DNA from: Salinibacterium sp.
Lineage (GTDB): Bacteria; Actinomycetota; Actinomycetes; Actinomycetales; Microbacteriaceae
Direction of reading: 5' to 3'
Length of the DNA stretch: 64,000 bases
NCBI GenBank assembly: GCA_019638845.1
Contig: JAHBSZ010000003.1
Span: 466,835 to 530,834, forward strand
The notes under the pieces were generated by a model, which saw only the letters and a program-made list of their open reading frames with translations, did not search any database and had not been told where the DNA came from. Shown piece by piece: positions 47,595 to 59,208 of the stretch. A program made the translations under genes and the position numbers. The number at the start of each line of letters is the position of its first letter. The first letter of the stretch is position 1.

Positions 47595-48917
47595 TCAATA
47601 CTGCATGCTGCCAGCGACTGCGCGTTGTCGGGCACCCCAACGCTGCGCTGATATGGGCGTGCAGGATGCGTCGATCGACACGGGCGGGATCAACCAGTGC
47701 TCGCCCGCTCTCTCATCGATCTCCCAGCCGTTGTTGTGCATGAGCATGTGGTGATGTCGGCACAGGAGTACCCCGCGAGAAATGTCTGTGCTGCCCTCGT
47801 CGCGTGCCCAAAAGTCGATATGGTGCGCCTCGCACCAGCTCGGTGGCCTGTCACATTCGGGGAACACGCAGCCGCCGTCACGCGCTGCCAACGCGACCCG
47901 CTGCCGCCAGTTGAACAATCTCTCGGATCGACCGACATCGAGGGGCTGTGATCCGTCGAACAAGACCGGCACGTATCCGCCGGCGCAGGCTAGCCGAGCC
48001 GCGGTGGCCATCGACACGCGAGCCGACTGCCCCTCGAGGTGCGCTGAGCCGACGCCCGCCTGCAGATCGGCGAGAGTGACGTGAAGGCGAACCGTGGGTG
48101 CAGTCACCCCGAACAGCGACCCCTGGTCTGCCATTGTCGCGAGCTTCACCATGTCAACGAGCGCGTCGGCGGTGAGCTGGTCGGTGGTGCGAGGGTCATC
48201 GACGACCCGCTCCGAGCGCGAAACCGCTTCGGCATCGACAAATCGCGGCCCACCGCGGCGCGGGGCCGTGATCGAGTCGACGGCCGCAACGACTACCGCT
48301 GCCGACTCAGGGTCGAGCAGACCGTAGATCTTGGTCATGCCATCCGGTTGCGGGCTCAGTCGCACAAATCGCTTGTCGCGCAGCTGCTCCTCCCGGTTGG
48401 CAACACCCTCACGATCGAGGTCGTCGCGAATGGAACGCGCTGCCGCGGCCACGCGCTCCGGAGTCGTCTGCTCTGCCGCGGCTACAAGACGGTGGGCAGC
48501 CTCGGTGAGGTCGTCGTTGCTCACCGAACTGCCTGGCTCGCCGAGCCCGGCCACGATGCCGTCGGCCGCGGCAATCGACAGGTCGCCTGCGGTCATCGCC
48601 GCGACGACGGGGGCGAGCCATGGCGACGAACCGTCGAGCGCACCGCCCACCCGGATGAGCGCTCGAGCCTCTCCACGTGTGACACCGGTGACGTGCTGCA
48701 CAAGGGCTTCCGGAGTGCGCAACCCCATGCGCTGCGCAAGCCCGGAGTACCCCAACTCGGGCGCCGAACGGCGACCCACCTCGGCAGACAGCCGGACGCT
48801 CAGAGCGTCGAGCTGTCGGCGCGACTCGGCGACCTCAGCCTGCAGCGAGAGCAAGGTGGCATCGTCGAGTGAAGCAAGTTCTTGGTGATCCGGCACGATC
48901 ACGGAGGCGATCGTCAT
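47595..48917 (-). CDS. DUF222/HNH endonuclease domain protein
   Basis: 440 aa of the actinobacterial 13E12-type family. The N-terminal about 300 residues are DUF222 (ALSVRLSAEVGRRSAPELGYSGLAQRMG). The C-terminus is an HNH nuclease with CVFPECDRPPSWCEAHHIDFW and LLCRHHHMLMHNNGWEI, including the zinc cysteines and catalytic His residues. ATG 48917. Function in the cell is unknown; many copies occur per genome. It is first in an operon with the polymerase gene and has a LexA-like box 21 bp upstream. Confidence 0.9.
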   Translation of the reverse strand: MTIASVIVPDHQELASLDDATLLSLQAEVAESRRQLDALSVRLSAEVGRRSAPELGYSGLAQRMGLRTPEALVQHVTGVTRGEARALIRVGGALDGSSPWLAPVVAAMTAGDLSIAAADGIVAGLGEPGSSVSNDDLTEAAHRLVAAAEQTTPERVAAAARSIRDDLDREGVANREEQLRDKRFVRLSPQPDGMTKIYGLLDPESAAVVVAAVDSITAPRRGGPRFVDAEAVSRSERVVDDPRTTDQLTADALVDMVKLATMADQGSLFGVTAPTVRLHVTLADLQAGVGSAHLEGQSARVSMATAARLACAGGYVPVLFDGSQPLDVGRSERLFNWRQRVALAARDGGCVFPECDRPPSWCEAHHIDFWARDEGSTDISRGVLLCRHHHMLMHNNGWEIDERAGEHWLIPPVSIDASCTPISAQRWGARQRAVAGSMQY

Positions 48918-48937: not shown

Positions 48938-48953
48938 TCGAAACTTTGTTCGA
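48938..48953 (-). promoter_or_regulatory. LexA (SOS) box, one mismatch, upstream of the HNH-polymerase operon
   Basis: Minus strand TCGAAC-AAAG-TTTCGA against the actinobacterial consensus TCGAAC-N4-GTTCGA (one mismatch). A TACAAT -10 candidate (plus 48924-48929) lies between the box and the start codon, so the box would overlap the -35. Confidence 0.65.
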
Positions 48954-53613: not shown

Positions 53614-53736
53614 CCCGACCCGCCGCGCCACCCGACCCGCCACGCGTCCCGACCCGCCGCGCCACCCGACCCGCCACGCCACCCGACCCGCCGCGCCACC
53701 CGGACCCGCCGTCCCGCCCCGCCGTCCCGCCCCGCA
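53614..53736. repeat. C-rich tandem repeat (17-bp units)
   Basis: Five units of 17 bp starting CCCGACCCGCC (53614-53698), then degenerate CCGTCC/CGCCCC copies. Lies in the non-coding 383 bp between ramB and the DUF1684 gene. No coding sense is supported on either strand. Confidence 0.85.
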
Positions 53737-53818
53737 CATGAATCGATCCAAAATCCAGTTATTGCGCGCACAGACATTCCCCTCGCCGCAAGTGGAGTTT
53801 GGAACGTTTCACGGGCGG

Positions 53819-53932
53819 GTGGGGCGCGGCGGGCGGGCGCGGCGGGCAGGGCGCAGCGGGCAGGGCGCAGCGGGCGCGGCGGGCAGGGCGCAGCGGGCGC
53901 AGCGGGCGGGCGCAGCGGGCGGGGATGCAGCA
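53819..53932. repeat. G-rich tandem repeat (14-bp and shorter units)
   Basis: Units of GGGCAGGGCGCAGC and GGGCGCGGC. This is the opposite-strand composition of the array at 53614, about 80 bp away. The two arrays can partly pair (GCCGCGCC with GGCGCGGC). The segment 53933-53980 between the array and the DUF1684 stop holds nothing else that I can see. Confidence 0.85.
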
Positions 53933-54851: not shown

Positions 54852-56183
54852 TTATTTCCAGCGCGGCTCGCTCGACCCCCACGCAACGACCGGCGACGGC
54901 CATTCACCCGGTCCCCCGTCGTAGTGCGGAGCAGGCAGCGCGGTCGTGAGCTCGTCGTGCGTGCCGACGGTCGGTTCCCATGACGGATGCCCGATCCACG
55001 GGCTGCGCGGTGCATCCAGTAGTTCCTGCGCGACACGAGCGAGCGACGTCTCGACGAGCCAAGAACCACCCTCGTCCAGTCGTCGACGCAGGGCGGATGT
55101 GATCGCGGCAGCGAGCAGGTACCCCGCCGAGTGGTCGAGTGCCTGGGCCGGGAGTGCACCGGGTTTCGCGGCATCCGGACTTTCGATCCACCCGATGCCA
55201 CTCGCGGCCTGAACGATGCTGTCGAACCCGCGGCGGACGGCGAATGGCCCGGTCGTGCCCCACGCGCTCAAGCGTGCGACGACGAGCCCGGGGTGGCGCT
55301 CGACGAGGGCCTCGGGCGACAGGCCGAACCGGTCGAGCGCGCCGGGGCGGTAGCCCGTGACGACGACGTGTGCGTCGGCGAGCAGGGACTCCACGACGTC
55401 GCGGTCGGCCGCCAGGTCGAGGATCACTGAGCGCTTGCCCGCTCCCGTATCGAGGTGCTGTGCCGGGATCTCGGGGTGATCGGGTCCGTCGACGCGCAGC
55501 ACATCGGCACCCCACAGCGCGAGCGTGCGGGTCGCGACCGGTCCTGCGATGACCCGGGTGAAGTCGAGTATCCGGATGCCCGTGGCGGGGGCATCCGCGG
55601 CGGCGAGCTCGAGCTCGGGCGCGTCGCCGATCCGCTCGACCGACACGAGCGGGGAACGCGCCACGGCCGCGAACTGCTCGTGCTCGCGCCACTGAGCCTC
55701 CGTGCGTACCGCGATCGCGACTCCTCCCCCGGCCGCGACAACTTCTTCGACCTCAAGCGCGTTCCGACCGTGTAGGTGTCGCAGCAGCTCGTCAGCCGTG
55801 GTCTCGTTCGGAAGCCCCAGCGCGCCGAGCAGTCGGTCGCGATGGTGCGGGTAGTTCGCGTGGGTACGAACCCACCCGTCGGCTGTGGGCCAGAACCCGG
55901 AAAGTTCGGCCCACGCGTTCATCGGCTCGCCGGCCAGCCGGTAGTGGCGTTCGCTTGTCACTGCCGTCGCGACCCGCACAGGGTCGAGTTCGACGGGCGG
56001 CACCGCCGAATCTGCGCGCCGCGCGAGCAAGAGGGCGGCCGACAGCGATGCGGCAGCGACCGCATCGTGCACGAGGGCGGCGACGGGCAGCACCGAGTCC
56101 AACGGAACCTCGTGGGGACGAACGAGATCGAGGGCGGCGGGGTCTTCACCGAGAGACGACCACGCGGTTGCAAGGAAGTTCAT
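54852..56183 (-). CDS. Class III CoA-transferase (CaiB/BaiF-like), permuted order
   Basis: 443 aa. The family N-terminal signature (ILDFTRVIAGPVATRTLALWGADVLRVDGP) begins near residue 210, and IGWIESPDAAKPGALPAQALDHSAGYLLAA follows. The first 210 residues (ERHYRLAGEPMNAWAELSGFWPTADGWVRTHANYPHHRDRLL) resemble the C-terminal half of the family, so the order seems circularly permuted. CoA acceptor unknown. ATG 56183 has no clear ribosome site. Divergent from a LexA-box gene. Confidence 0.8.
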   Translation of the reverse strand: MNFLATAWSSLGEDPAALDLVRPHEVPLDSVLPVAALVHDAVAAASLSAALLLARRADSAVPPVELDPVRVATAVTSERHYRLAGEPMNAWAELSGFWPTADGWVRTHANYPHHRDRLLGALGLPNETTADELLRHLHGRNALEVEEVVAAGGGVAIAVRTEAQWREHEQFAAVARSPLVSVERIGDAPELELAAADAPATGIRILDFTRVIAGPVATRTLALWGADVLRVDGPDHPEIPAQHLDTGAGKRSVILDLAADRDVVESLLADAHVVVTGYRPGALDRFGLSPEALVERHPGLVVARLSAWGTTGPFAVRRGFDSIVQAASGIGWIESPDAAKPGALPAQALDHSAGYLLAAAITSALRRRLDEGGSWLVETSLARVAQELLDAPRSPWIGHPSWEPTVGTHDELTTALPAPHYDGGPGEWPSPVVAWGSSEPRWK

Positions 56184-56215
56184 GCTTGATCGTACGACCA
56201 TGCGCTGCCGGGTGA

Positions 56216-56247
56216 TTGACGTAGTCAAGATTCGAACGTATGTTCGA
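56216..56247 (+). promoter_or_regulatory. Promoter with perfect LexA box (leaderless)
   Basis: -35 TTGACG (56216-56221), 17 bases, -10 TATGTT (56239-56244). The LexA box TCGAAC-GTAT-GTTCGA (56232-56247) matches the consensus exactly and covers the -10. The ATG of the next gene (56251) is 6 bases after the -10, so the transcript should begin at the start codon. Confidence 0.8.
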
Positions 56248-56250
56248 GAC

Positions 56251-56745
56251 ATGCCGCACCACTGGCGACCCAGCGATCATCTCGAACGGTCACCGCAAGG
56301 CGGCGTGTGGCTGCTCGTGGAGCGCGGGCGCCGGGTCGGCAGTATCGAATACGGCAAGGTTCGGCAGCGACGGGCCTTTCGTGCCGTGACGCCGACGGGC
56401 GAGCTCGTCGGCTACACGTGGTCGCTCGAGCGGGCATGCGATCGGCTGTGGGATTGGTCGGTGCGCACTGGGAGAGGAGCAGGGTTGACAGCGTGGCCGT
56501 GGCCGCCGATTCAGGTTGCCGAGAACGAATGGGTGATCATGCGCAATAGTCCGTCGCTACCGAAAGCGGTGGTGCGGTTCTTCGACGCCACGGCCGCCCG
56601 GCCGGCCTACTATCGCGCCGTGACGTGGGCCCCTGGTTCCGAGGGGCGCGAGCTCATCGGGTACTTCCTCACGCTGGAACTCGCCGACGAGGCGGTGCTC
56701 GAAGACTCCCCCGGACGCATCTCGACCGAGCCCGATCGTCGCTGA
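56251..56745 (+). CDS. Unknown protein with internal repeat, LexA-box promoter
   Basis: 164 aa, basic and Trp/Tyr-rich. Two modules share a pattern: AFRAVTPTGELVGYTWSLERACD (first) and YYRAVTWAPGSEGRELIGYFLTLELADEA (second), so it may be a tandem duplication of a small alpha-beta unit. No enzyme motif or membrane helix is seen. ATG 56251 is probably a leaderless start because the -10 is only 6 bases away and no ribosome site exists. DNA-damage induction is inferred from the LexA box. Function unknown. Confidence 0.7.
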   Translation: MPHHWRPSDHLERSPQGGVWLLVERGRRVGSIEYGKVRQRRAFRAVTPTGELVGYTWSLERACDRLWDWSVRTGRGAGLTAWPWPPIQVAENEWVIMRNSPSLPKAVVRFFDATAARPAYYRAVTWAPGSEGRELIGYFLTLELADEAVLEDSPGRISTEPDRR

Positions 56746-56809
56746 CGGCATCAGACTGGCGAGCAGGATCGGAGAAGACCCCCTAGGCCGACGGGGCTAT
56801 GGTCGGGGC

Positions 56810-57232
56810 ATGAGCGAATCAAAGAAGCCCGAGTTCAGCGCGGAAGAAAAGGCCGCCATGAAGGAGCGGGCCAAGGAATTGAAGACTGCCGCGACGAAAG
56901 CGGAGGCCGAAGCGGACGTGCTCGCGAAGATCGCCGATATGCCAGAGCCCGACCGATCCATCGCTACGCGGATACACGAACTGGTCAAAGAGGTAGCTCC
57001 CGAGCTCTCGGCGAAGACCTGGTACGGCTCCCCCGCGTGGAACCGAGATGGCAAGACCGTGCTCTTCTTTCAGGACCGCGCCAAGTTCAAAACGCGCTAC
57101 TCGACGCTTGGGTTCAGCGAGGAAGCATCGCTCGACGACGGCAGCATGTGGCCCTCGTCCTATGCGGTGCTGGAGCTTGGCAAGAAGGAGGAAGAGATGG
57201 TCACGAAGCTCCTGAAAAAGGCTCTGGGATGA
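56810..57232 (+). CDS. DUF1801 protein (YdhG-like)
   Basis: 140 aa. N-terminal charged helix (KKPEFSAEEKAAMKERAKELK), then the DUF1801 core: RIHELVKEVAPELSAKTWYGSPAW with the conserved W-Y-G-x-P, VLFFQDRAKFKTRYSTLGF and a final lysine-rich helix. Function unknown. ATG 56810, 64 bp after the previous gene; no strong terminator lies between. Confidence 0.85.
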   Translation: MSESKKPEFSAEEKAAMKERAKELKTAATKAEAEADVLAKIADMPEPDRSIATRIHELVKEVAPELSAKTWYGSPAWNRDGKTVLFFQDRAKFKTRYSTLGFSEEASLDDGSMWPSSYAVLELGKKEEEMVTKLLKKALG

Positions 57233-59175: not shown

Positions 59176-59208
59176 TCGAACATACTTTCGAATGGCAAGG
59201 AGAGTCAA
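59176..59208 (-). promoter_or_regulatory. Promoter with LexA box for the 117-aa gene, divergent to the 83-aa gene
   Basis: Minus strand: -35 TTGACT (plus 59203-59208), 18 bases, -10 TATGTT (plus 59179-59184). The LexA box (plus TCGAAC-ATAC-TTTCGA, 59176-59191) has one mismatch. Read on the minus strand it is TTCGAAAGTATGTTCGAGA, against TTCGAACGTATGTTCGAGA at 56231: one difference in 19 bases. Confidence 0.75.

Follow-up and report, generated by a model that had tools for sequence, protein, structure and literature searches.

A probable LexA-repressed gene of an undescribed Microbacteriaceae damage-response family in Salinibacterium

The window analyzed here, a 64,000-nucleotide stretch of a contig (JAHBSZ010000003.1) from Salinibacterium sp., a genus of the Microbacteriaceae, contains a gene for a 164-aa, two-module protein (positions 56251 to 56745, forward strand; here P0002) that is quite likely a LexA-repressed member of an undescribed Microbacteriaceae damage-response family, acting through the mechanism proposed below. 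Since the gene carries a perfect LexA box and among its relatives the site of either of two damage switches occurs, P0002 is, judging from sequence comparison, very probably a new DNA-damage-response protein.

The gene is preceded by a sigma-70-type promoter pattern, TTGACG-N17-TATGTT (56216 to 56244, forward strand), with the −35 element at 56216 to 56221, a spacer of 17 nucleotides, and the −10 element at 56239 to 56244. This −35/−10 pair is unique within 56100 to 56900 (shuffle mean, 0.1), and a similar geometry of −35, box, and start is found in genus g51. Overlapping the −10 is a LexA (SOS) box, TCGAACGTATGTTCGA (56232 to 56247), which matches the actinobacterial LexA motif at 12 of 12 palindrome positions; when the window was shuffled 100 times with dinucleotides preserved, a perfect TCGAAC-N4-GTTCGA never arose. 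Six bases (56245 to 56250) separate the −10 from the ATG (56251 to 56253), and the stop lies at 56745. The original prediction had described the promoter, the perfect box over the −10, and the ATG six bases beyond it, and all three were found as described. The reading frame itself is supported by a coding signal in which changes relative to five relatives fall mostly at codon position 3 (e.g., 0.16/0.20/0.48), and by a conserved N terminus, M-x-HHWR-[PA]-SD in all eight aligned N-module sequences and M-x-HHWRPSD in all six aligned full-length proteins.

The box is kept in relatives, often at a near-fixed distance from the start codon. Among ten congeneric loci with the N-terminal module, the window included, nine carry a box matching at least 10 of 12 positions, and in seven of these nine the start codon lies 2 to 4 nt past the box, so that those messages should be leaderless. 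A degenerate congeneric locus (G008) has no box. In one relative (L028) the box lies 46 nt from the ATG, and GGAGAG precedes that ATG, which independently supports the same start codon. Outside the genus, seven loci of g51 combine TTGACA or TTGACT with a box covering the −10 and an ATG three bases past the box, and four loci of g3 likewise have a box with the ATG at three bases, two of these boxes matching at only 10/12.

To these we can add a wider set of 110 C-module loci, the window included, in which a LexA box of at least 11/12 lies within 350 nt upstream of 29, compared with 0/110 downstream and 0/110 when the pattern is reversed. Of these boxes, at least two look doubtful (G301, at −181, and G052, at −334). 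With the threshold lowered to 10/12, the counts are 33/110 upstream, 7 downstream, and 1 for the reversed pattern. The set consists of 30 loci plus 80 further matches, taken in roughly descending score among the matches listed; it does not include one listed match (G329) or any that were weaker or unlisted, and a duplicate pair (L055 and L097) was counted once. Drawn from 93 genomes in 35 genera, the loci are not independent.

The window's genome encodes the machinery that such a box would require. LexA and RecA are both present; LexA matches numbered one, and the lexA gene has a weaker upstream box (10/12). A whole-genome pattern scan of the 2.96-Mb genome found three perfect LexA boxes in total, the second at the start of imuA′ (NF058630, 183.9 bits) and the third inside a family-2 glycosyltransferase gene. 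Sites with at most one mismatch number 46 genome-wide versus 17 for a reversed control pattern, and many one-mismatch sites are therefore chance matches. Those with one mismatch include boxes before recA (C1:37346), before a PF13532 oxygenase gene, whose product we take to be AlkB-like, and at the start of a DUF222-HNH gene (L019). Inside the window, another one-mismatch LexA-like box (48938 to 48953) lies 20 bases before a DUF222 gene on the reverse strand (47598 to 48917). The predicted LexA control thus gains support from a box kept in congeners and in other genera, from the presence of LexA, RecA, and ImuA′, and from further boxes at recA and imuA′, and we regard SOS control of the P0002 gene as well supported. 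The glycosyltransferase box is probably a chance site; the P0002 box could by the same token be accidental or vestigial and the gene free of damage control. Against this, the distance to the start is kept in several genera and shuffling never produced a perfect site, and we consider a chance site nearly excluded, the only alternative to which we give that grade.

Under the LexA-repressed reading, the position of the box and the known biology of LexA suggest that at rest LexA would occupy the site over the −10 and block RNA polymerase. Upon DNA damage, RecA filaments would induce LexA self-cleavage, transcription would start at or beside the ATG, and the resulting leaderless mRNA would be translated directly into a product in which one strand-rich module, closed by a helix, occurs twice. 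Leaderless translation is probable and fits the conserved start geometry.

Many relatives without a LexA box carry a different damage-associated promoter pattern. A RecA-independent promoter consensus, tTGTCRgtg-8nt-TannnT, is given in the accessible part of one study (PMC5656591), and the accessible part of another attributes this promoter to PafBC (PMC8223512). We found the pattern TGTC[AG]G-N10-11-TANNNT, which fits the published consensus but was settled after these loci had been viewed, within 200 nt upstream of 37 of the 77 loci that have no LexA box of at least 10/12, and in only 2 of the 33 that do (39/110 in total). Downstream, reversed, and opposite-strand controls each gave 0/110, and the same loci hold 39 matches in 22 kb of upstream sequence versus 2 in 389 kb elsewhere. 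With the more stringent TGTC[AG]GNGG, 18/110 loci matched (opposite-strand control, 1/110). Neither element was seen at 40/110 loci under the 350-nt box limit; a 200-nt limit gives 43 loci without an element, the window's gene among them because its box lies 262 nt from the C-module. The window's gene differs from the PafBC regulon in having no PafBC-type motif upstream of 56251, and family members differ in the regulator site they carry.

Of the 35 genera, 10 have boxes of at least 11/12 (200-nt limit; the window's genus not among them) and 17 have PafBC-type patterns; both kinds of element occur in four genera, although for g38 the box is doubtful. Two genomes (G282 and G348) have one LexA-type and one PafBC-type copy each. 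In the family loci, the pattern would presumably act through PafBC, and the window's genome has a gene for a PafC-type protein (115 bits). With about half of the box-less relatives carrying the pattern, damage induction appears to be conserved and the regulator to have been exchanged, and the family's members appear to have been rewired between two DNA-damage switches. The original proposal of a new DNA-damage protein is strengthened accordingly by relatives that lack the box on which it was built.

PafBC-type loci (e.g., L063, L076, L107, and L148) also have a conserved leader that begins a few bases past the −10. Of 49 such leaders, 28 contain GGCCGG within 40 nt, often followed by a short hairpin in which GCTCC pairs with the Shine-Dalgarno sequence GGAGC. 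With each locus's own arms, 156 of 168 pairs form, compared to 95 on average when arms are exchanged; however, the arms were chosen as the best at each locus, and the best stems have on average 5.6 pairs versus 5.0 in shuffled tails. An Rfam search of eight leader loci returned tRNAs only. In the window's genome, the sequence upstream of recA (L173) holds, besides the LexA box, a PafBC-type pattern, TGTCGGTCGGCGAGCGTAGCGT.

The family is patchily distributed. Matches to the whole of P0002 were obtained in 33 of 149 relatives and, within the genus, in 10 of 26 other genomes searched; genomes with relatives include Leifsonia sp. SCN 70-46, two Rhodoglobus MAGs, and three Salinibacterium genomes. 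The module profile was matched in at least 142 of 349 Microbacteriaceae genomes, a lower bound since 16 candidates were scored per genome. A class-wide draw gave matches in 4 of 296 genomes, the window's own included, all of them Microbacteriaceae, and as far as tested the family would be an innovation of the Microbacteriaceae. Architecture varies as well: the two modules are joined in the window's genus and elsewhere are single or encoded by two overlapping genes, as in a Rhodoglobus locus (L061) whose second gene has its own GGAGG. One genome (G007) encodes the two modules at separate places, and the C-module alone occurs in many Microbacteriaceae.

We considered a divergent CoA-transferase as a conserved partner of the box and rejected it: it lies 1.4 to 1.6 kb off on the divergent side in two of six named relatives, is downstream in one, and did not turn up within 5 kb on either side in the other three. 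A gene at window positions 56810 to 57232 has a weak likeness to DUF1801, below the cutoff, and a DUF1801-like gene also lies about 0.2 to 0.9 kb from P0002 relatives in L056, L057, and L061.

P0002 was predicted to consist of two similar modules, and this proved right: profile comparison of the N-terminal module (residues 1 to 75; 56251 to 56475, forward strand) with the C-terminal module (residues 81 to 155; 56491 to 56715, forward strand) gave 96.5% (E value, 7.7e-10), from which it follows that the two are homologous. Both modules are predicted to have four strands and one helix, in the order β-β-β-β-α in the N-module, which has a calculated pI of 11.0; the C-module is acidic (calculated pI 4.6, residues 81 to 152). 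AlphaFold2 models of the full protein (pLDDT 81.9, pTM 0.68) and of the N-module alone (pLDDT 87.0, pTM 0.73) show each module as main strands with a closing helix. P0002 had no match in Pfam, NCBIfam, or PADLOC. The C-module profile had no match among PDB sequences, and 23 C-modules searched against Pfam and PHROGs gave isolated weak matches only, those in PHROGs to seven families, each with one of the 23 members (E values, 0.025 to 0.23). Within the window's genome, a paralogue search at E values up to 1 recovered only P0002's own two modules.

What the protein does is a more tentative matter. The basic N-module and weak fold leads raise the possibility, which we hold with low confidence, that P0002 is soluble and acts at damaged or single-stranded DNA, either as an adaptor or by binding nucleic acid, the N-module providing the contact surface. 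Foldseek searches of the PDB with the full model and the N-module gave nothing at an E value of ≤0.001 (best E value, 0.1; TM, 0.22). Nonsignificant top lists include Pur-alpha for the full model (from E 0.1) and ThermoDBP-RP2 for both models (E 0.24 and up). A Pur repeat consists of four strands and a helix. Both proteins bind single-stranded DNA, but at E values of 0.1 to 1.5 and TM scores of ≤0.40 the likeness to P0002 is nonsignificant and may serve as a lead only. Also against a nucleic-acid role, unrelated folds rank level with the single-stranded DNA binders, the single-module list consisting largely of GRK2 kinases, and the C-module is acidic. A more specific version, which we think doubtful, is that the family comprises lineage-specific damage effectors made from one strand-rich module, which would act as a homodimer where it is single and as an internal pseudo-dimer where it is doubled; these effectors would bind single-stranded DNA at sites of damage and would have moved repeatedly between LexA and PafBC control.

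The best fold matches were instead predicted structures of small phage proteins without known function (E values, 1.2e-3 to 1e-2), one of them from Arthrobacter phage Sonali; the top match had an E value of 1.2e-3, a probability of 1.00, and a target TM of 0.72. Together with the patchy distribution, these could be taken to mean that P0002 derives from a phage or plasmid and has been domesticated under SOS control, for instance as a defense module triggered by damage. We regard this as rather unlikely, given that a search of 50,697 phage records found no sequence matching P0002 (or one single-module relative), that a plasmid search gave only two weak partial matches, both to Microbacterium plasmids, and that the absence of a PADLOC match speaks against a defense module. 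Division inhibitors such as SosA and DidA are common among small SOS proteins of unique sequence, and P0002 might in the same way be an SOS-induced brake on cell division or replication, SosA- or SulA-like in action and unrelated in sequence. The P0002 model is compact and soluble, however, with no obvious membrane segment by eye, and a brake of this kind strikes us as quite improbable.

A second putative SOS gene lies about 2.5 kb from the P0002 gene, each with its own box. It encodes an 83-aa protein (P0003; 59209 to 59460, forward strand) of a second SOS family, whose members often adjoin P0002-family genes, and has a LexA box with one mismatch at 59176 to 59191. All 18 scored members of the P0003 family have a LexA box of at least 11/12 and none (0/18) has a PafBC-type pattern; 20 loci were fetched, the others being cut off by contig ends. 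P0003-family frames occur in the flanks (0.6 to 1.5 kb) of 10 of the 110 P0002-family loci, against an estimated chance expectation of about 0.1 per 110 loci at roughly one copy per genome. Eight of the ten are divergent and have a box of at least 11/12, which lies between the genes or within the P0003 frame; the remaining two are codirectional, and one of them lacks a box. G004 is an eleventh case, also divergent. P0003 and four relatives had no hmmscan match, and no DUF6504 protein scored above the cutoff in the window's genome. The P0003 family nevertheless shows a remote profile likeness to DUF6504 (PF20114; hhalign, 89%; E value, 2.2e-6; 77 columns; based on 13 of 14 DUF6504 loci), P0003 itself falling below the family cutoff.

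DUF6504 genes probably sit by dnaE2 clusters. It is conceivable that P0002 and the DUF6504-like P0003 assist the ImuA′-ImuB-DnaE2 mutasome as accessories of translesion synthesis, and the linkage of two LexA-boxed families, the DUF6504 likeness, and the perfect box at imuA′ all point in this direction. However, the two families differ in distribution and the imu operon is distant from the window's gene (C7:267788 versus C7:523066), and a mutasome role therefore seems to us unlikely.

Another SOS-like gene, that for P0004 (85 aa; L020:2037-2314; genome C8, CDS 246656-246910), had no Pfam or NCBIfam match. We considered P0004 as a third copy of the P0002 module and rejected this, the profile comparisons being nonsignificant (3.7% and 8.6%). 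At this gene TGTCGGTGG immediately abuts TCGAACATAGTTTCGA, and a PafBC-type pattern merged with a LexA box at the −10 was present in 22 of 23 scored P0004 relatives; 25 loci were fetched, and those cut off by contig ends include the window genome's own locus, whose box was seen separately. With the two sites merged, a single promoter would carry the signals of both an activator and a repressor.

Genes under SOS control are well known as a class, and other actinobacteria have many LexA-bound genes without an assigned function: the accessible part of a study of the Streptomyces venezuelae LexA regulon gives the motif tCGAAC-N4-GNNCGa and reports that most damage-responsive LexA-bound genes are of unknown function (PMC9380542). 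The P0002 gene has the same palindrome, and its genome also has boxes at recA and imuA′. That part of the study names no P0002-like protein, and kinship of P0002 with some of its unknown-function targets is possible. Relative to the RecA-independent promoters described in the accessible part of PMC5656591, the same kind of pattern stands before 37 of the 77 box-less family members. In the open-licence literature, we found neither the P0002 family nor an exchange of LexA- and PafBC-type promoters among its members, and nothing on a LexA/SOS box, a mitomycin SOS response, or PafBC in Microbacteriaceae or Microbacterium. Damage responses in this family of bacteria seem little studied, and a comparative study, in its accessible part, lists Leifsonia xyli as a species with an uncharacterized SOS response. 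A protein family whose members carry sites of two independent damage regulators makes it possible to ask why bacteria keep both, and the P0002, P0003, and P0004 families provide a small set of uncharacterized damage proteins that can be tested.

Elsewhere in the window, two G+C-rich repeat regions lie upstream of the P0002 gene, a tandem repeat with 5.7 copies of a 17-base unit (53614 to 53711) and a block of overlapping 9- to 23-base repeats (53812 to 53924).
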